Virus record (IMG/VR): IMGVR_UViG_3300010430_000258
Span: 1-36,022 of that record
Direction: 5' to 3' (one strand)
Length of the DNA: 36,022 nt
DNA from: a virus
Each line of letters begins with the position of its first letter. The first letter of the stretch is position 1. Both the position numbers and the translations under genes were made by a program. Below are positions 3,351-22,891 of the stretch, piece after piece. A model generated the notes under the pieces. It had not been told where the DNA came from, ran no database searches, and saw nothing but the letters and a program-made list of their open reading frames with translations.

Positions 3351-4265
3351 ATGGCCGATTTTAAATACGGGGAAGAGGAATTTTTGAATAGAAAACCCAC
3401 CATTAGTAACAGCCGCTTTGCTTTGGTAAGGACATCCGGCACCGGAAATTCAACCTGCCCAGTCCCGAAGGCCGAGCAGGTTAGATTGCAAAACCATTTG
3501 ATTGACGATTCAATCGTATCCGATATCTTGACCCTGCTTTACGATATGGGAGAGGACATCATATCGATTGAATTATCACATCGCCGCACGACCCAACGGT
3601 GGGGGACGGCATGGACGGCCAAACGGAAGGTTGTATTATATCGCCATACAGCATGGTGCCTTTTGCACGAAATCGCCCATATTATAAATGATGGTGATGC
3701 CAGAGCCGAAGCCGCACGGATGAATGCACCGTATTTTCAATACAAACGCAAATCCCACGGACGGGAATTTGGTAAATATCAGCAGATGCTTTATGATTTA
3801 TGGATGGAGCATATCGAGCCGAGATGGGATGCTTTGAAAGAAGCCGCCCTGAATGAAGCCGCCGACCCTGATAAAGCCGAGTTTGAAAAGGCTTTTGTCG
3901 CCGGACATTTTGGCATGATGGTATCTGCCGAAGTTGATGCCGATGGCCACACGATGAATTACATCGACAACAAAGGGGTAATAACCGACTATCGAAAATA
4001 TTTGGATATGTTGGTAAAGGCCAGAAAGACGGTCGAAAAATTCAAGCCGCTTTTTACTCCGCCAAAACGCCGCCCGAACCGCCCAGTGGTAACTGGTGGG
4101 GAAGTAAAAGCCGGAGATAAGGTTTGGTTTTGGAATGGCAAACGTAAGCAATACAAAATCCACGGCACGGTAAAAAGAGTCAATCTGAAAACCTGCCGGA
4201 TTGAAAATACCACGGAAGGGACGGACTGGAGAGTATCTCCTGCCCTGCTACATAAAGAAATTTAA
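3351..4265 (+). CDS. SprT-like zinc metallopeptidase-like protein with KOW-like C-terminus
   Basis: A 304-residue protein. The LLHEIAHI segment (about 104-111) is an HExxH zinc motif, followed about 26 residues later by SHGREFG. That HExxH...H layout is typical of SprT-type metalloproteins that act on DNA-bound proteins. A linker rich in Ala and Asp leads to a small C-terminal beta domain, about 245-304 (VKAGDKVWFW, HGTVKRVN, TDWRVSP), resembling KOW/SH3-like modules in related phage proteins. The start at 3351 has ideal spacing from GGGAG; ATG 3345 would be too close. Protease activity and target are unproven. Confidence 0.7.
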   Translation: MADFKYGEEEFLNRKPTISNSRFALVRTSGTGNSTCPVPKAEQVRLQNHLIDDSIVSDILTLLYDMGEDIISIELSHRRTTQRWGTAWTAKRKVVLYRHTAWCLLHEIAHIINDGDARAEAARMNAPYFQYKRKSHGREFGKYQQMLYDLWMEHIEPRWDALKEAALNEAADPDKAEFEKAFVAGHFGMMVSAEVDADGHTMNYIDNKGVITDYRKYLDMLVKARKTVEKFKPLFTPPKRRPNRPVVTGGEVKAGDKVWFWNGKRKQYKIHGTVKRVNLKTCRIENTTEGTDWRVSPALLHKEI

Positions 4266-4658: not shown

Positions 4659-4712
4659 TTTTGTTGACAAGTGCCGATATCAGTTATAGAATGAAAGAAA
4701 CGGTCAACAAAA
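4659..4712 (+). promoter_or_regulatory. Repeated phage promoter cassette, copy 2, with inverted repeat
   Basis: TTGACA 4664-4669, a 17-bp spacer containing GCCGATAT and TAGAAT 4687-4692. TTTTGTTGAC (4659-4668) overlaps the -35, and its exact reverse complement GTCAACAAAA (4703-4712) lies just after the expected transcription start. The two arms could be operator half-sites or form an RNA/DNA hairpin. It drives the genes starting at 4729. Confidence 0.87.
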
Positions 4713-5263: not shown

Positions 5264-5443
5264 ATGATGACAGATAATGACGTTCATGATATGATGGAAG
5301 AAATGGGTATTTGCCCGAACTGCCACGACCATACGCCTTGTGGATGTGAACCGGTTGAGGAAGAAGAATATGATATGACGCCGATTCAAAATGTTTTGGG
5401 GGATGCCATAACCCGATTGAATGGATTGATATGTCAGAGCTAA
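5264..5443 (+). CDS. Small acidic Cys-rich protein
   Basis: A 59-residue acidic protein with CPNCHDHTPCGCE (about 18-30), a clustered metal-binding-like motif, and an EEEE run after it. AAGGAG lies eight bases before the chosen ATG, inside the end of the preceding gene. The gene ends 13 bases inside the next one. Function unknown. Confidence 0.6.
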   Translation: MMTDNDVHDMMEEMGICPNCHDHTPCGCEPVEEEEYDMTPIQNVLGDAITRLNGLICQS

Positions 5444-5943
5444 AATATAGTGAGTCAAAATTACCTTATATCGAGCTGACAACCGAAGGCACAATTGACC
5501 ACAGTGGGGATTACGGCATGTTAATTTTTAGCCGGACGACTCAGACATCCGATGGCTATAAATATATCTGCTATACCCACACTTATACCGACTTGGTCAA
5601 GGTCAAAAAGGGCAGTGGATATGACATGCATAAAATGACGGTTAAAGATTCCTATATTTTCAATATGAAAATGAAACGGGACGCCGAAGGTATTAGGGGA
5701 GTCCCGCAGGGAACGATACCACGCCGCCTTGTTGATTGGATTATAGCCATGTTTAATCCCTTTTTAATCGATGACGTCCTGCCATTTTCGGCCATCGAGC
5801 AACTCAGGCCGATTATTGAAGGCATGGATATCCCAACGATTCTTGATACCAAGGTCAAACGTGCATATAAAAGGAAGAAGAAAAAGGATAAGGTCGTGCC
5901 GGAACCGGTAAAATCGACTGGCACCTTGACCGATTTATTTTAA
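5431..5943 (+). CDS. Unknown protein with clamp-binding-like C-terminal tail
   Basis: A 170-residue protein: beta-rich first half (YIELTTEGTIDHSG, YKYICYTHTY), helical second half, a basic stretch KRAYKRKKKKDK (about 143-154) and a flexible tail ending TGTLTDLF. That tail resembles C-terminal sliding-clamp-binding peptides. The phage DNA polymerase ends NLSDIF and the C5 methyltransferase ends NLLELF. The gene lies shortly before the late sigma factor, so a clamp-associated transcription or replication role is possible. This is inference from a short motif. Confidence 0.7.
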   Translation: MSELKYSESKLPYIELTTEGTIDHSGDYGMLIFSRTTQTSDGYKYICYTHTYTDLVKVKKGSGYDMHKMTVKDSYIFNMKMKRDAEGIRGVPQGTIPRRLVDWIIAMFNPFLIDDVLPFSAIEQLRPIIEGMDIPTILDTKVKRAYKRKKKKDKVVPEPVKSTGTLTDLF

Positions 5944-6185
5944 TGAATAAAGGATTCACACTGATTGAATTGATTGCCGTGCTTTTAATCCTTGGGGTAT
6001 TGGGGACGTTTGTCGCCAAGAGGTATATGAACTTCGATACCAACTCCAAGGCAAAGGTTGAGGCCGTTCAAAAGACCGCCCAAACCCGCAAGGATGGACT
6101 TTACAAATACGCCGGAATTGAGGAACGTTCCGAAGAGGATGCCGCAAACGATGTCGAAACGGAAGAAGAAAATAGTCTTGAATGA
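5943..6185 (+). CDS. Type IV prepilin-like small protein
   Basis: An 80-residue protein starting MNKG/FTLIEL and continuing with a long hydrophobic helix to about residue 26. This is the class III prepilin signal: Gly at -1, Phe at +1, Glu at +5 after cleavage by prepilin peptidase. After the helix comes only a short, strongly acidic tail (EERSEEDAANDVETEEE), so the globular pilin head is absent. Mature pseudopilins are usually nearly twice this size. It overlaps its upstream neighbour by one base (TAATG) and contains the start of the gene at 6151. It could enter and block host type IV pilus or type II secretion assembly. A simple membrane anchor is the alternative. Confidence 0.75.
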   Translation: MNKGFTLIELIAVLLILGVLGTFVAKRYMNFDTNSKAKVEAVQKTAQTRKDGLYKYAGIEERSEEDAANDVETEEENSLE

Positions 6186-6303
6186 GGAACTGGCCGAGAG
6201 TCAGAAACTTCCGTTCGCCATTCCAACCGCACCGCCCACCAAATGGCACAAAAATAAAAAAGCATATAACCGCAAAAAAGAGAAATCAATCCCTAAAGAA
6301 TAG
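6151..6303 (+). CDS. Small basic protein
   Basis: A 50-residue Lys-rich protein overlapping the end of the prepilin-like gene by 35 bases in another frame. Recognisable features are a basic N-terminus (SKRKKKIV), a Pro-rich centre (PFAIPTAPPT) and a basic tail (HKNKKAYNRKKEK). The Pro/Lys layout is common among tiny phage proteins of unknown role. AGGA lies about eleven bases before the ATG. Longer versions starting upstream have no ribosome site. Confidence 0.55.
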   Translation: MSKRKKKIVLNEELAESQKLPFAIPTAPPTKWHKNKKAYNRKKEKSIPKE

Positions 6304-6320: not shown

Positions 6321-6350
6321 TTGACAAACTCTCCCCACATTTGGTATAAT
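6321..6350 (+). promoter_or_regulatory. Sigma70-type promoter of the late sigma gene
   Basis: Perfect TTGACA (6321-6326) and perfect TATAAT (6345-6350) with an 18-bp spacer, 22 bases before the sigma factor ATG at 6373. It differs from the repeated cassette (no GCCGATAT, no inverted repeat), so the late sigma factor probably has separate control by host RNA polymerase. Confidence 0.85.
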
Positions 6351-6372: not shown

Positions 6373-6792
6373 ATGCCGAAGAAAAAAGTTAAAAATCCCA
6401 AGGGGAAGCATTATGTAACAAATCAGGAAATGATTGCGGAGCTGAAGCGGTTTAAGAAAACCGGCATTCTAAGCGAGAGATTACATTTAATATTTTACGA
6501 GATGGCCGAGAATATAGGCACGAAAGGCCGTTTTTCCGGCTATACTTGGATCGAAGATATGGTATCGGATGCATATCTCAAATGTTTAACCGTGGCACAG
6601 AAATTCGATACCAACCGAACAAATCCATTCGGATATTTTACAACCGTGATTATTCACTATTTTTGGGACGCCCTGGCGGGAGAAAAAAAGCAGAAAAATA
6701 TCAAAGACAGGTTGCGGGATGACCAAATATCGCAATTATATCACCGCTATGGGATAACCTTTAAAGTGGGGCAGAGACATGGAACGAGTTAA
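6373..6792 (+). CDS. 55: gp55-type late-transcription sigma factor
   Basis: A 139-residue protein whose centre, about 47-98, matches T4 gp55: a GYTWIEDMVSDAYLKC region followed by a NPFGYFTTVI segment and then EKKQK. These are the sigma region 2-like helices that bind RNA polymerase and the late -10 element. It is clearly shorter than T4 gp55, and its end (GITFKVGQRHGTS) shows no acidic or hydrophobic clamp-binding tail. Either the clamp link is carried by another protein or late transcription differs. GGAG precedes the ATG, and the last 14 bases overlap the kinase gene. Confidence 0.85.
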   Translation: MPKKKVKNPKGKHYVTNQEMIAELKRFKKTGILSERLHLIFYEMAENIGTKGRFSGYTWIEDMVSDAYLKCLTVAQKFDTNRTNPFGYFTTVIIHYFWDALAGEKKQKNIKDRLRDDQISQLYHRYGITFKVGQRHGTS

Positions 6793-7236: not shown

Positions 7237-8256
7237 ATGCCCACGGCAGTTATTGGCGACCTTCACTTTGGGATGCGGATTACCGATGAGCGATTCATCG
7301 ATTACCAAATGACCGAGTGGAGAAAATTTATAGGCTATTGCAAAGAGCACGATATCACCAACCTCATTATTTTAGGGGATTTTTTCGATAACCGGAATTT
7401 TATATCGGTCAAAATTCTCAATCTGGTTTTAGATGAAATTGAAAAGGCGGATATCAAAGTGCTTTTGCTCATTGGCAACCACGACACTCTTTTTAAAAAT
7501 ACGAGTAAAGTCAACTCTCCGGACCTGATATTTAAAAAGCATAAACAGGTCACAGTCCTTCAGGCCGCAGAGGAGATGGTAATTGATGGCGTCCCGTGCC
7601 TTTTCATCCCTTGGATTAATAAGGAGAATTGGAATGAAAGCCTGGCCGCAATAAAAAATTCCACGGCGAAATACTGCTTCGGCCATTTAGAGCTGCAAGG
7701 TTTTGAAATGACCAACGGTATTAAATGCACCGCCGGGATGAATGCACCGACCTTCAGGAAATTTAAACAGGTATATTCCGGCCACTTTCATCTGGTGCAG
7801 AAAAAGGGCAATATCCATTATTTAGGGTCGTTTTATCAGACCACGTGGACGGATTGCGGAGACCAAAAATTCGCTTATATATTTGAGGCCGGTAAATTAA
7901 AAGCAGTTCCAATGGCCCGATCGATATTCAAAAAGTTCTATTTTTCGGTTGGAAAACCGATTGATAATGAGGCCATCGAACAGGCGAAGGATTGCTATGT
8001 TAAAGTTTATATCAATTACAAAATGAAGGCAAAAGAAGAAAAACTTTTGTCAAAATTGATTGAATCTGCTATAAAATGTGACGTGATAGATATGAGTCTT
8101 TTGTTGGATGCACCGGACGATGGCGAAGTCACCAATGAAGATTTTATGGAAATCTTTGAGGGGTATATGGAAATCCAAGACGAACTGGATGATGACCTCA
8201 AGTCGGGTGTAATACAATTAATGAAGGAGACTTACAATGAGGCATTATCAGGTTGA
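7237..8256 (+). CDS. 47: gp47-like SbcD/Mre11 nuclease subunit
   Basis: A 339-residue calcineurin-fold nuclease. All metal motifs are present: GDLHFG (7-12), GDFFDNR (47-53), GNHD (80-83), FGHLE (148-152) and GHFH (182-185). In T4, gp47 pairs with the gp46 ATPase to resect broken DNA ends for recombination-dependent replication. The length equals T4 gp47. The partner gene follows at 8427 after one small intervening gene, preserving the T4 47-46 order. Confidence 0.95.
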   Translation: MPTAVIGDLHFGMRITDERFIDYQMTEWRKFIGYCKEHDITNLIILGDFFDNRNFISVKILNLVLDEIEKADIKVLLLIGNHDTLFKNTSKVNSPDLIFKKHKQVTVLQAAEEMVIDGVPCLFIPWINKENWNESLAAIKNSTAKYCFGHLELQGFEMTNGIKCTAGMNAPTFRKFKQVYSGHFHLVQKKGNIHYLGSFYQTTWTDCGDQKFAYIFEAGKLKAVPMARSIFKKFYFSVGKPIDNEAIEQAKDCYVKVYINYKMKAKEEKLLSKLIESAIKCDVIDMSLLLDAPDDGEVTNEDFMEIFEGYMEIQDELDDDLKSGVIQLMKETYNEALSG

Positions 8257-8425
8257 AAGTGAAGTCACTGATTTATCGAATGCCGGAGTTGGCGATTTTG
8301 GATTTGATTCCGCCCGTGCGAAGTTATTATATCAATGGGAGATTACGGAAGATATTCAAGACCACTCGCCTTATTTGGAGTTCGGTTGGTATGGTTTCGT
8401 TCCACTTGTAATTTTCAGGAGCTAA
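8237..8425 (+). CDS. Small protein between gp47 and gp46
   Basis: A 62-residue acidic protein with an aromatic C-terminal half (YQWEITEDIQ, LEFGWYGFVPLVIF). AAGGAG lies within the end of gp47 seven bases before the ATG. The gene overlaps gp47 by 20 bases and ends one base before gp46, so all three are probably co-translated. No family recognised. Confidence 0.7.
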   Translation: MRHYQVESEVTDLSNAGVGDFGFDSARAKLLYQWEITEDIQDHSPYLEFGWYGFVPLVIFRS

Positions 8426-8426
8426 A

Positions 8427-10367
8427 ATGCATTTTAAAACTATCAAATGGAAAAATCTATTCAGTTATGGTAAGGGATGGACGGAGATGCCTCTGGACAC
8501 TCAACAGACCATAAATATTGTGGGCAATAACGGGGCCGGTAAATCGGTCTTCGTTGAGGCGATATTTTTTGCCCTGACCGGCAAACCACTGCGGAAATGC
8601 AAAAAAGACCAAATCGTAAACATCTCCAACAAAAAAGACTGCCTTGTGGTCTTGGAGGTGCAGGCCGGTAAATCCAATTATATAATTTCCCGCGGGGCAA
8701 AGCCGAACGTCTTTACCATTGAAAAAGATGGTGCGATGATGGATGAGGCGAGCATGATGATGGAAACGCAGGCATATCTCGAGTTTGTGCTTGGATTTAG
8801 CAAGAAAAATTTAAAGCATACACTGATTATGTCCACGACTGATTATATCCCATTCCTGCGCCTCACAGCCGCCGACAAGCGGATGTTTATAGAGGACATC
8901 CTGGCAATTGAGATATTTTCCGTGATGAATAAGCTCGTCAAGGCAAAACTCTCGATTTTAAAGGATGAGATTCGGGATAATGAGTCGGCCATCGATAAAC
9001 TCCAATATAAACTGAATATGGTTCTGGAGTATAATAAGCAACAACGCGAGACCAATGACGACCAAATCGCCGAGTTAGAGGGGAGCAAACAACGGGAGCA
9101 GGCATCCGCCAAAGATGAACTGGCCGCATTGAAAAAGCAAGCCGGGGAATTAAAGGTTGAATTAGCTGACCTCAAAAACCGGTCAATTGACCTCTTAAAG
9201 CGTACAGAAGAAGCCAAAGCCGCCCACGAAAAACTTGGTCTGCAGAAATCGGAAATTTTCAGGGAACTGCTCGACCACAAAGAGGTATTTGATGCCGACA
9301 CTCAAAAATGGAAGGATAATATCGATAAAGGCGGGAAGGTCAAATGGAAGTTAAATACCGAACTGCATACCAAAGAGGAGACCCTTCAGTATTACGAAAG
9401 CACATCCGAGTGCACGGAATGTGGGCAGGCCATCGATGTCGATTTTGCTAAAAAGCAACTCAAAGACCTCCGGACCGAGATTGCGGAGCTAAATAAAAAG
9501 ATTACCAAAATCGAAGCGGAGTTGGACAAGGTCGTCATTTTCAAGGAAAAGGTCGCCCAATATGAGACCGATAATGTCACTCCCCTGGATGAAAAATGCA
9601 AAAAGCTCGAAAAAGAAATGTCAGATTATCAGTTAGGATGGTATGATACCGAAAATGAAATCAAAGTGATTGAATCAAAAATTGAGGCCGGTAAAAAGGC
9701 CGGTAACAATCTTAAATCCACTCGCGAGTCTGTAATTGAGAACACTAAACGCCGGATATCGGATATAGAGACTTCAATTCAGGGTCTCCGGACCGAAACC
9801 CGCGGGAGTTTAAAAGATGAGGATGGGCCGGCAGAGGAGGTTTCAGCCGCCCAAATAAATCAAAAGCAACTGGCCTTCAAAAAGTTGGTGCACGATACAA
9901 CGATTAAAATATTGAGCGATAAGGGGATTAAAACCTATATCATCAAGCGGTATATCCCGAAACTCAATTCACTGGTCAACCAGTATTTGAATATTTTATC
10001 TGCGCCATACGAATTATCCTTTAATGAGGAACTCGATGAGAAAATCGCCCTCAAGGGATACGATAAATTGTCATATAATAATTTTTCAGAGGGGGAACGG
10101 CAACGATGCGACATCGCCCTGCTTTTTTCATTTTTAGATATCGCCAAAATGAAAAACTCTCTGACCTCAAACCTGCTGATAATGGATGAGGTATTTGACC
10201 GGAGTCTGGACGATGATGGCATCCGCGGCATAATAAATATCATCGATTCCATGCGCCAGAAGGGATTCACGATTGCTAATATCTCGCATAAGCATCAACT
10301 GGCCGACCAGTTTGATGTGACTTATCGAGCAATAAAAGAGAGATTTTCAAGATTGGAGAAACAATAA
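8427..10367 (+). CDS. 46: gp46-like SbcC/Rad50 ATPase subunit
   Basis: A 646-residue SMC-type ATPase, partner of gp47. Walker A is GNNGAGKS (33-40). Two coiled-coil arms flank a zinc hook CTEC (C329, C332). The ABC signature is FSEGERQR (about 553-560) and Walker B is LLIMDEVFD (about 585-593). It should bind DNA ends and power gp47 resection. It is somewhat longer than T4 gp46 (560 residues) because of its coiled-coil region. The stop TAA is followed directly by the MazG-like gene. Confidence 0.95.
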   Translation: MHFKTIKWKNLFSYGKGWTEMPLDTQQTINIVGNNGAGKSVFVEAIFFALTGKPLRKCKKDQIVNISNKKDCLVVLEVQAGKSNYIISRGAKPNVFTIEKDGAMMDEASMMMETQAYLEFVLGFSKKNLKHTLIMSTTDYIPFLRLTAADKRMFIEDILAIEIFSVMNKLVKAKLSILKDEIRDNESAIDKLQYKLNMVLEYNKQQRETNDDQIAELEGSKQREQASAKDELAALKKQAGELKVELADLKNRSIDLLKRTEEAKAAHEKLGLQKSEIFRELLDHKEVFDADTQKWKDNIDKGGKVKWKLNTELHTKEETLQYYESTSECTECGQAIDVDFAKKQLKDLRTEIAELNKKITKIEAELDKVVIFKEKVAQYETDNVTPLDEKCKKLEKEMSDYQLGWYDTENEIKVIESKIEAGKKAGNNLKSTRESVIENTKRRISDIETSIQGLRTETRGSLKDEDGPAEEVSAAQINQKQLAFKKLVHDTTIKILSDKGIKTYIIKRYIPKLNSLVNQYLNILSAPYELSFNEELDEKIALKGYDKLSYNNFSEGERQRCDIALLFSFLDIAKMKNSLTSNLLIMDEVFDRSLDDDGIRGIINIIDSMRQKGFTIANISHKHQLADQFDVTYRAIKERFSRLEKQ

Positions 10368-10769: not shown

Positions 10770-10977
10770 GAACATATTCTTAGACCTTATGAATCATCCG
10801 CACGAGTATTGGTGCAATGGTAAAATGAGGCCATATAATGACGAGCCAACCGAGCATTCCCACGGGAAATATTTAGTCGTAAAATGTAATAAATGTTGTA
10901 ATGTCCCAGTCTACCATTTATTGAGGAGAAAAAATTGCAATACTTCGGAGGCAAACACTTCACGGCAGATAAAATAA
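10768..10977 (+). CDS. Small Cys/His-containing protein
   Basis: A 69-residue protein with one CNG near residue 16, HSHG near 31 and CNKCC near 40-44, which may bind a metal ion. The last ~14 residues are encoded within the overlap with the methyltransferase gene. It is the first gene after a promoter/inverted repeat whose right arm includes its ATG, so it may be autoregulatory or simply the leader gene of the methylase operon. No family recognised. Confidence 0.55.
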   Translation: MNIFLDLMNHPHEYWCNGKMRPYNDEPTEHSHGKYLVVKCNKCCNVPVYHLLRRKNCNTSEANTSRQIK

Positions 10978-11741
10978 CCGATGTAATGAATACCATGATT
11001 AAAAAGGGTCAGGTATACCTTGAGCCCTTTGTTGGTGGCGGGTCAATCGTCTCCAAAATGAGAGCATCGGTAAAGCTCGCCAGTGATTCAAATCCCTATT
11101 TGATAGCAATGTATCAGGCACTTCAGAAGGGATGGGTCCCGCCGCTCAAAGTTTCTGAAGATGAATATAATGCAATGAAGCGGACGCCGGATATCAATCC
11201 CGATTATAAAAATCGCACCGATACCGATAATATTGACACCAACGCACCGGATTATAAACCACCTGCACCGGAGGTTGTTGGCTTTGCCGGACATGCCTGT
11301 GCCTTTTATGGAATCTGGTTTAATACTTATGCCCGTGACCCGAAGCTTGGCACGAATTTTGCAGAGAAGGGCAGGAATACCTTATTGCGACTGGCACCAA
11401 AAATTAAAAATGTCAAATTTTACAATAAGAGCTATCTTGACTGGAAGCCGAAAAATGCTTTTATATACTGCGACCCGCCATATTCGGATACAACACAACC
11501 GTATTATACCAAAACATTCGACACGGATTTGTTTTGGGAAACGATGAGAAAATGGTCGGAGACCAACACGGTTGTGATATCGGAATACAGTGCGCCGGAT
11601 GATTTCTTTTGCATCGCCGAGATACCGACAAAGACCTGCGTATTTTTCAAGGATAAAAAGACCGGCATTATCGGCAAATCAGACCGGATTGAGAAATTAT
11701 TTTCATTGACCAAATATAATCCGTGGGAAGGGATATTTTAA
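10935..11741 (+). CDS. dam: Dam-like DNA adenine N6-methyltransferase, paralog 1
   Basis: A 268-residue D12-class methyltransferase. FGGK (4-7) and LEPFVGGGSIV (29-39) form the AdoMet-binding region; DPPY (180-183) is the catalytic motif for N6-adenine methylation. The TTG start at 10935 has AGGAG five bases upstream and gives the usual family start (compare MRYFGGK in the paralog). It shares stretches of near-identical DNA with the gene at 11930, for example around 11090-11140, so the pair arose by duplication. Specificity is probably GATC by family, which fits the GATC avoidance of this genome but is untested. Confidence 0.9.
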   Translation: MQYFGGKHFTADKITDVMNTMIKKGQVYLEPFVGGGSIVSKMRASVKLASDSNPYLIAMYQALQKGWVPPLKVSEDEYNAMKRTPDINPDYKNRTDTDNIDTNAPDYKPPAPEVVGFAGHACAFYGIWFNTYARDPKLGTNFAEKGRNTLLRLAPKIKNVKFYNKSYLDWKPKNAFIYCDPPYSDTTQPYYTKTFDTDLFWETMRKWSETNTVVISEYSAPDDFFCIAEIPTKTCVFFKDKKTGIIGKSDRIEKLFSLTKYNPWEGIF

Positions 11742-11933
11742 ATGGCACCGGGAATTACATTTGATAAACAGGTATTTGCTTGTTTGAAAGAAAATTTGGA
11801 ATTGGAACTCGAATTTAATGAGGATACAAAGGGACTGGAAGTCAAAGTAATGTTTGACGGTTATACCGAACCAGTCGCCCAAGAGACCGTTTATCTCGAC
11901 CATTTGCATAACAGAAGGGATTTGGATATATGA
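11742..11933 (+). CDS. Small acidic protein between methyltransferases
   Basis: A 63-residue acidic protein with alternating hydrophobic and Glu residues (LELELEFNEDTKGLEVKVMF), probably a small beta sheet. It starts immediately after paralog 1 and overlaps paralog 2 by four bases (ATGA). It may have been caught between the duplicated genes or act with them. No family recognised. Confidence 0.65.
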   Translation: MAPGITFDKQVFACLKENLELELEFNEDTKGLEVKVMFDGYTEPVAQETVYLDHLHNRRDLDI

Positions 11934-12637
11934 GATATTTCGGCGGAAAAGGCACCATCGCTGAACCGATTTGTGAAATGATAAATCAGTGGATGAAACC
12001 AGGCCAAGGATTTCTTGAGCCCTTTGTTGGGTCGGCATGGATTGTGCGTAATGTCGCCGCCAAACACCGGTTCGCATCCGATACAAATCCTTATTTGATA
12101 GCGATGTATCAGGCACTTCAAAAGGGATGGGTCCCACCGACTCATTTCAGCGAAGATGAATATAAAGCCTTAAAAGAGGAGCCGGATACTGACCCTGCCT
12201 TGGCCGGGTTTATTGGTCACTTTTGCTCCTTCGGCGGGATGTGGTTTCAGGGGATTGCCAAGGATGCAAAAAAGCACAATTATATCAAAATGGCCGCAAA
12301 GACCGTTTTGAAAATGGCGCAGGATATTTGGGGAGTTGATTTTCGATGTAAATCATATGACGAATGGAAACCAAAGAACGCTTTTATATACTGCGACCCA
12401 CCATACGCCGACACTGGGCAGGCATATTTTTCAACGCAGTTTGACTCTGAGAAATTTTGGGACACCATGAGGAAGTGGTCCGAAAATAATATCGTTATCA
12501 TATCGGAATACAAGGCACCGGACGACTTTAAATGCATCGCCGAATATCGGGTCCGGATGAAATTAAACACGGAGATGCGAACTGAAAAGGTCTATTCAAA
12601 ACATGCTTATGACCCTTTCGGAGGGATTTTCAAATGA
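11930..12637 (+). CDS. Dam-like DNA adenine methyltransferase, paralog 2
   Basis: A 235-residue paralog of the 10935 product with FGGK (4-7), DPPY (156-159) and the common LIAMYQALQKGWVPP block. It lacks a ~25-residue Asp/Asn-rich insertion present in paralog 1 near 88-112. Its AdoMet loop reads LEPFVGSAWIV where paralog 1 and most relatives have a Gly-rich FxGGG/FxGxG, so cofactor binding or activity may be altered. It could be a second specificity, a regulatory partner or a decaying copy. The ORF is intact and tightly coupled to its neighbours. Confidence 0.87.
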   Translation: MRYFGGKGTIAEPICEMINQWMKPGQGFLEPFVGSAWIVRNVAAKHRFASDTNPYLIAMYQALQKGWVPPTHFSEDEYKALKEEPDTDPALAGFIGHFCSFGGMWFQGIAKDAKKHNYIKMAAKTVLKMAQDIWGVDFRCKSYDEWKPKNAFIYCDPPYADTGQAYFSTQFDSEKFWDTMRKWSENNIVIISEYKAPDDFKCIAEYRVRMKLNTEMRTEKVYSKHAYDPFGGIFK

Positions 12638-22129: not shown

Positions 22130-22891
22130 ATGAAACCGTTACCACATCTTGTAATTTTTCTTATATCAGTCCTTTTAATTTTAGGGGGATGTGCCAGTCA
22201 ACAACCAATGCCGACTCCGACCAAACCGGCAGAGTTAAAAATAACCATCACAAACCTTGGCCGCAATGGAGCAGGCGAAAAGGCCAATATTGAAATAAAA
22301 CAAGGCGATAAAATCCACAGGTCAATGGAAGTGGATAATCCTGGCATGAAATTATCGCAGTTATCCGCCATCACCTCAACCAATAAAGCATTTATCAAAA
22401 TATTTTCCGGCCTATCTGTGGCCGATGTAACCCGCACATGGAACGACCTTTTATACCTTGAAAACGAGACCAATATCCGAGAGGTAAACATTTTCATTGA
22501 TTCACCGGGTGGCGATGCTTTTTCCGGTCTCGCTCTGGCCGACCAAATCGAGATATTTAAGAGAAAAGGATTTAAATTCATCGCTCATGCAACCGGTATC
22601 GTGGCATCCGCCGCCGTTCCGGTATTTGCCGTTTGTGATGAGACCCACGCTTCTGAGGCGACCATATTTATGGTTCATGAGGCCGCACTTTGGAAATGGC
22701 CGGGACGGGAGACCGCAAGTGATATCCGGTCACAAGGGAGATTGATGGATTTATTGCAACGCCTATATTTAACCAAATTGGTCAGGCACTCAAAGGTTGA
22801 TTTTGAAGCATGGGAGTTAATGGAAGCCCGAACGTCTTGGTTTGGCACTAAAAAAGCCGTGGAGTTGGGAATCCTTGACCATATTGATTAG
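22130..22891 (+). CDS. ClpP-like serine protease with lipoprotein signal
   Basis: A 253-residue protein. Residues 1-20 are a hydrophobic signal ending in a lipobox LGG with C21, so it should be exported and lipid-anchored. A ClpP/crotonase-fold protease domain follows: IDSPGGDAFSGLALAD (123-138), GIVASAA with Ser160 as nucleophile, MVHEA with His183, and MEARTSWFGTKKAVELGILD near the end. The last motif matches phage-type ClpP (ETWFTAEEALEYGL) rather than the Asp of bacterial ClpP. Phage relatives are usually cytoplasmic head-maturation proteases, so the lipoprotein signal is unusual. GGAG precedes the ATG. Confidence 0.8.
   Translation: MKPLPHLVIFLISVLLILGGCASQQPMPTPTKPAELKITITNLGRNGAGEKANIEIKQGDKIHRSMEVDNPGMKLSQLSAITSTNKAFIKIFSGLSVADVTRTWNDLLYLENETNIREVNIFIDSPGGDAFSGLALADQIEIFKRKGFKFIAHATGIVASAAVPVFAVCDETHASEATIFMVHEAALWKWPGRETASDIRSQGRLMDLLQRLYLTKLVRHSKVDFEAWELMEARTSWFGTKKAVELGILDHID

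Follow-up and report, generated by a model that had tools for sequence, protein, structure and literature searches.

A short, headless prepilin-like protein in a T4-like phage, tentatively read as a mimic of the type IV pilin helix

In a 36-kb virus record (36,022 nucleotides; the whole stretch of DNA analysed here, referred to as the window) we identified a gene for an 80-residue protein that joins the N-terminal signal of a type IV prepilin to a short charged tail. Our tentative reading is that the phage protein is genuine, maintained by selection and an imitation of the N-terminal helix of type IV pilins, and that it would act in the host inner membrane; we narrowly favour this reading over one in which the signal serves merely as an anchor.

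The window is a fragment of a T4-like phage, with genes for a late sigma factor, gp46/gp47 and a DNA polymerase. The nearest named phages, for the most part cyanophages and marine single-cell viruses, share no more than about 31–37% identity with it in gp46 and DNA polymerase, and the host could therefore not be assigned. The features of the locus are collected in the table. Elsewhere in the window, the gene at 22130–22891 combines a lipoprotein-type N-terminus (LILGGCA) with a Clp-protease fold domain (PF00574, E 5e-17), an unusual combination in a phage envelope protein. Two similar adenine methyltransferase-like genes also lie side by side at 10935–11741 and 11930–12637; the first matches the D12 class, and the pair is probably a duplication. 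PADLOC returned no match.

Features of the prepilin locus (window coordinates unless a relative is named)
Feature	Position	Strand	Evidence or remark
Sigma-70-type promoter of the prepilin operon	4664..4692	+	copy of a repeated promoter; also L003 4167, L004 1131
First gene of the operon, 140 aa	4729..5151	+	no function assigned
Small Cys-containing protein of the operon	5264..5443	+	
170-aa protein	5431..5943	+	no function assigned; stop overlaps prepilin start (TAATG)
Short prepilin-like gene, 80 aa, MNKGFTLIELIAVLLILGVLGTFVAKRYMNFDTNSKAKVEAVQKTAQTRKDGLYKYAGIEERSEEDAANDVETEEENSLE	5943..6185	+	N_methyl, TIGR02532; homologs in L003, L004
Leader MNKG	5943..5954	+	sequence; predicted prepilin-peptidase cleavage after Gly4
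Hydrophobic helix FTLIELIAVLLILGVLGTFVA, 21 residues	5955..6017	+	with Phe+1 and Glu+5
Post-membrane segment	6018..6182	+	basic part (net +5), then acidic tail (net -10)
Second ORF, MPQTMSKRKKKIVLNEELAESQKLPFAIPT... (MPQTMSKRKKK...), basic, 54 aa, other frame	6139..6303	+	conserved in L003/L004
Perfect consensus promoter TTGACA-18-TATAAT of the next unit (late sigma factor)	6321..6350	+	conserved: L003 5857, L004 2821
T4 gp55-like late sigma factor	6373..6792	+	PHROG 234, E 2e-22
gp47/gp46-like (SbcD/SbcC) genes	7237..10367	+	mark the phage as T4-like; anchor synteny
Prepilin homolog, 83 aa	L003:5470-5721		81% identical to the window protein
Prepilin homolog, 83 aa	L004:2434-2685		81% identical to the window protein

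The prepilin signal and the extent of pilin likeness

An earlier note on this DNA had read the gene as a phage-encoded, truncated type IV prepilin with the signature MNKG/FTLIEL and a long hydrophobic helix, and had proposed a search with models of the N-methylation motif. This search bears out the signature: the protein scores 27.3 bits with Pfam N_methyl (PF07963; cut-off 21.2, E 2.5e-6) and 31.3 bits with the NCBIfam GFxxxE prepilin domain TIGR02532 (cut-off 16.3, E 1.2e-7), and it is the sole N_methyl match within the record. A Gly(-1)/Phe(+1) site follows a short basic leader, as in class III (prepilin) signals, and is succeeded by Glu(+5) and a hydrophobic helix of about 20 residues. The description as a truncated protein of a phage, with an acidic tail in place of the head, likewise stands, with the addition that a basic part precedes the acidic tail. 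The segment beyond the membrane contains no cysteine and no globular head. An AF2 model places a long helix at residues 7–56 and a second at 64–79, at low confidence (mean pLDDT 67).

The likeness to pilins is concentrated at the N-terminus. In a comparison with 97 bacterial pilin-like proteins, the score for the first 20 residues of the mature protein greatly exceeds those of shuffled sequences, whereas the score for residues 21–54 is marginal (shuffle p 0.015 for the window protein, 0.05 for its homolog) and that of residues 25–54 against the alpha1-C half of pilins is not significant (p 0.06 and 0.18, respectively). At the level of sequence, demonstrable pilin likeness is thus confined to the first ~24 residues and is not significant beyond about residue 28. 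The alpha1-C half and globular beta-sheet head of lollipop-fold pilins were not found in the 80-residue protein. It shares with type IV prepilins and pseudopilins the leader and hydrophobic helix with Gly(-1), Phe(+1) and Glu(+5), and scores above the domain cut-offs, but differs in its length, its missing globular head and its location in a T4-like phage. Its best full-length NCBIfam matches are to the N-termini of GspG and GspH, with scores far below the equivalog cut-offs of those families.

Among the best solved relatives by sequence is Geobacter geopilin domain 1 (9egp, E 2e-5). Geobacter PilA-N is a pilin with F1 and E5 that naturally lacks a head (PMC6201914), and both it and the window protein are headless and consist of alpha-1 only, with both residues kept. 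The window protein differs in its acidic tail, its phage origin and the restriction of the similarity to the N-terminal helix. Among the flanking ORFs we found no PilA-C-like partner, and the neighbours carry no pilin or signal features.

Conservation, selection and expression

A scan for relatives based on gp46 identified two contigs (L003 and L004) with 79% identical gp46 and the same gene order as the window, including a prepilin homolog at the equivalent position. These homologs retain Gly(-1), Phe(+1), Glu(+5), the helix and the acidic tail, in agreement with the earlier note, which would have given up its reading had relatives lacked Gly(-1) or Glu(+5); they are identical to each other, so that they amount to a single comparison with the window and to a shallow test of conservation. 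Their leader is MKRLNKKG in place of MNKG, and across GFTLIELIAVLLILGVLGTFVAKRY they differ from the window protein by two conservative changes only. The dN/dS of the gene between window and homologs is 0.10, compared with 0.19–0.32 for the other operon genes, 0.15 for gp46 and 0.05 for the sigma factor. Within the gene it is 0.014 in the signal and helix, a rough value since dS is near saturation, and 0.098 in the segment that follows. Over the final 18 codons synonymous change (dS) is held down by the conserved ORF at 6139–6303, which overlaps the 3′ end of the gene over its last 47 nt (6139–6185), and part of the acidic tail is consequently doubly constrained. Judged by these comparisons, the prepilin gene is under purifying selection and is not a product of chance.

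More distant relatives were sought by tblastn against annotated phages with the whole protein and with the first 35 residues of the homolog. Neither query found a match, and low-complexity filtering probably hides the helix in such searches. The best 80 matches of a family-profile scan of bacterial genomes were ordinary pilins, aligned mainly over the N-terminal helix, with no bacterial copy of the family among them.

The operon is compact, with genes that overlap or abut. Its promoter is one of four copies in the window (1207, 4664, 31791 and 34611) of the element TTGACAnnnGCCGATAnnrGTTATArnAT, for which none are expected by chance and which is also present in both relatives; it likely marks a phage-wide early regulon. 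No late promoter in the operon was convincing: the only T4-late-type TATAAATA, at 5557, was rejected, as it sits within the coding sequence of the 170-aa protein. Promoter and operon layout together suggest that the prepilin gene is expressed early or in mid infection. The 170-aa protein itself has no significant match in Pfam or PHROG, and a single-sequence scan found no relatives, yet synteny places a counterpart in L003 and L004.

Short prepilin-like proteins in other phages

A scan of viral contigs for the exact motif MxKGFTLIE returned 58 stretches. Proteins of 95 residues or fewer account for 30 of 56 phage ORFs with the motif and for 0 of 95 bacterial ORFs with it, where the bacterial control set was assembled by similarity to the window family and the phage set includes some near-copies and some long contigs that may be host DNA. 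The short phage proteins, represented by PHROG 13280, 10597 and 11263 as well as by the scan loci, have the same N-terminal signal as the window protein and are mostly 50–105 aa long, but carry many unrelated tails, often with cysteines, and many adjoin a gene of the SPFH/Band 7 family. Short prepilin-like proteins are thus a widespread and recurrent class of phage gene. Our literature search found neither this class nor its SPFH link described.

A Band 7/SPFH gene was present in 15 of the 33 records examined, and in 14 of these 15 the SPFH and prepilin genes shared a strand and lay no more than 1 kb apart. With near-copies merged, this held for 11 of 12 records, where random placement predicts 0.7; examples include L020, L033, L035, L047, L051, L054, L010 and L027. 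An independent scan anchored on SPFH genes found a true short prepilin neighbour at 11 of 93 loci, among them five not caught before (L186, L194, L196, L199 and L200, the last with Ala(-1)), and no short prepilin elsewhere on the same strand in those loci. Most SPFH genes are without such a neighbour, including 13 loci of annotated phages such as Skarpretter and AD45-P1, and four further matches of 226 aa were rejected as prepilins on inspection by eye. The window record and its two relatives, all three of them fragments, contain no Band_7 (PF01145) match. At L051, near 10994 (record G023), a tandem pair of prepilin-like genes directly follows the SPFH gene.

Two other families show that the anchor can be exchanged. 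A tail-only scan with one 90-aa family yielded ten loci (among them L078–L086, match at 4001), of which eight carry the prepilin signal and two (L084 and L085) a plain hydrophobic anchor. In the second family (L020 and L035), the relative L181 pairs the cysteine-containing head of the family with a plain anchor. In both families the small, cysteine-containing head is better conserved than the anchor, an order that the window family does not show. Based on these sequences, the prepilin signal can serve as just an anchor in phages. A prepilin motif need not be a weapon against pili, since in two families homologs of the head sit on anchors that lack Gly(-1)/Glu(+5).

Possible function

According to our preferred reading, the protein would be produced in early or mid infection from its sigma-70-type operon, inserted into the host inner membrane with N-in/C-out topology through the class III signal and, as the motif predicts, probably cleaved after Gly4 by the host prepilin peptidase. 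Its mature form, a helix in which Phe1 and Glu5 are free, may then enter the host pool of pilins or pseudopilins and compete with them to dock at the platform that assembles type IV pili or serves type II secretion, where its missing globular head could lower or alter filament function in the infected cell; this entry and its effect are the least certain steps. Such competition presupposes type IV pili or a type II secretion system in the host. The phage might benefit by the exclusion of pilus-using competitors or by a quieter envelope.

The main competitor to this reading is that the class III signal is a membrane anchor only, holding a small charged periplasmic effector whose target is something other than pili. 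We regard this as a real prospect. The exchange of anchors beneath a retained head (L084/L085 versus L078–L083/L086, and L181 versus L020/L035) and the many unrelated tails of the short phage proteins speak for it, and diverse archaeal proteins bear class III signals according to work cited in PMC10191384. Against it, the most conserved part of the window family is the helix, and the tail has neither conserved cysteines nor a confident fold. A mere anchor also has no need of Glu+5. In pilins this residue forms a salt bridge to the N-terminus of the neighbouring subunit and docks it into the filament (PMC10191384), which is why its retention matters, and its presence in the membrane helix of the window protein argues for more than an anchor.

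The earlier note had further supposed that a pilin without a head could not build a normal pilus, and that it could poison the assembly of pili or of type II secretion and so block superinfection by phages that use pili. Geobacter PilA-N weakens this premise, as its example means that headless does not in itself equal assembly-incompetent (PMC6201914). The window protein might accordingly be a working headless subunit of this kind, which would enter host filaments and tune rather than block their dynamics. Geopilin domain 1 as nearest solved relative, the existence of F1/E5 pilins without a head and the shift of Vibrio cholerae pilus dynamics with pilin stoichiometry (PMC13249403) are in line with this proposal, but no PilA-C-like head gene is adjacent and the neighbours offer nothing pilin-like, and we consider it improbable. 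That the protein is a lysis accessory such as an Rz-like spanin of the inner membrane, or some other late envelope protein, is less probable again. Weak profile matches to the Rz-like spanin PHROG 1152 (E 0.015) and to ATP synthase B (E 0.007), which share the membrane-anchor-plus-charged-helix type, hint at it; the helix accounts for both matches, the one to ATP synthase B does not reach its cut-off and prepilin models give far higher scores, while the promoter is of early type and no recognised lysis gene lies nearby. Finally, the gene is short and overlaps another ORF at its 3′ end, as a spurious ORF or a decayed fragment of a host pilin might, but its place in two other contigs, its preserved reading frame and its dN/dS make such an origin extremely unlikely. 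Spanin, decayed host pilin and chance motif were all considered and dropped.

Other phage proteins are known to inhibit type IV pili (PMC11656802, PMC11436027). Tip/Aqs1 (acting on PilB), Zip (PilZ) and Pf phage proteins share with the pilin-helix mimic that we favour a possible effect on the infected cell, namely altered pili. They differ in that they target partners of the pilus machine, a distinction drawn from their published descriptions. Our literature search found no phage pilus inhibitor that works as a pilin mimic, which agrees with the statement of the earlier note that no phage weapon of this design was known. A broader proposal, which we hold to be rather doubtful, is that phages generally use the class III signal to work on the host inner membrane, with short prepilins of varied tails that are often paired with SPFH proteins; the headless and cysteine-free form in the window would then come nearest to a mimic of the pilin helix alone, one that blocks type IV filament machines.

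If the protein is cleaved and active on filaments, it would represent a new route by which phages gain control over type IV pili or type II secretion, through mimicry of a substrate as opposed to inhibition of a motor. Whether or not the mimic reading holds, the SPFH link ties many short phage prepilins to membrane organisation.
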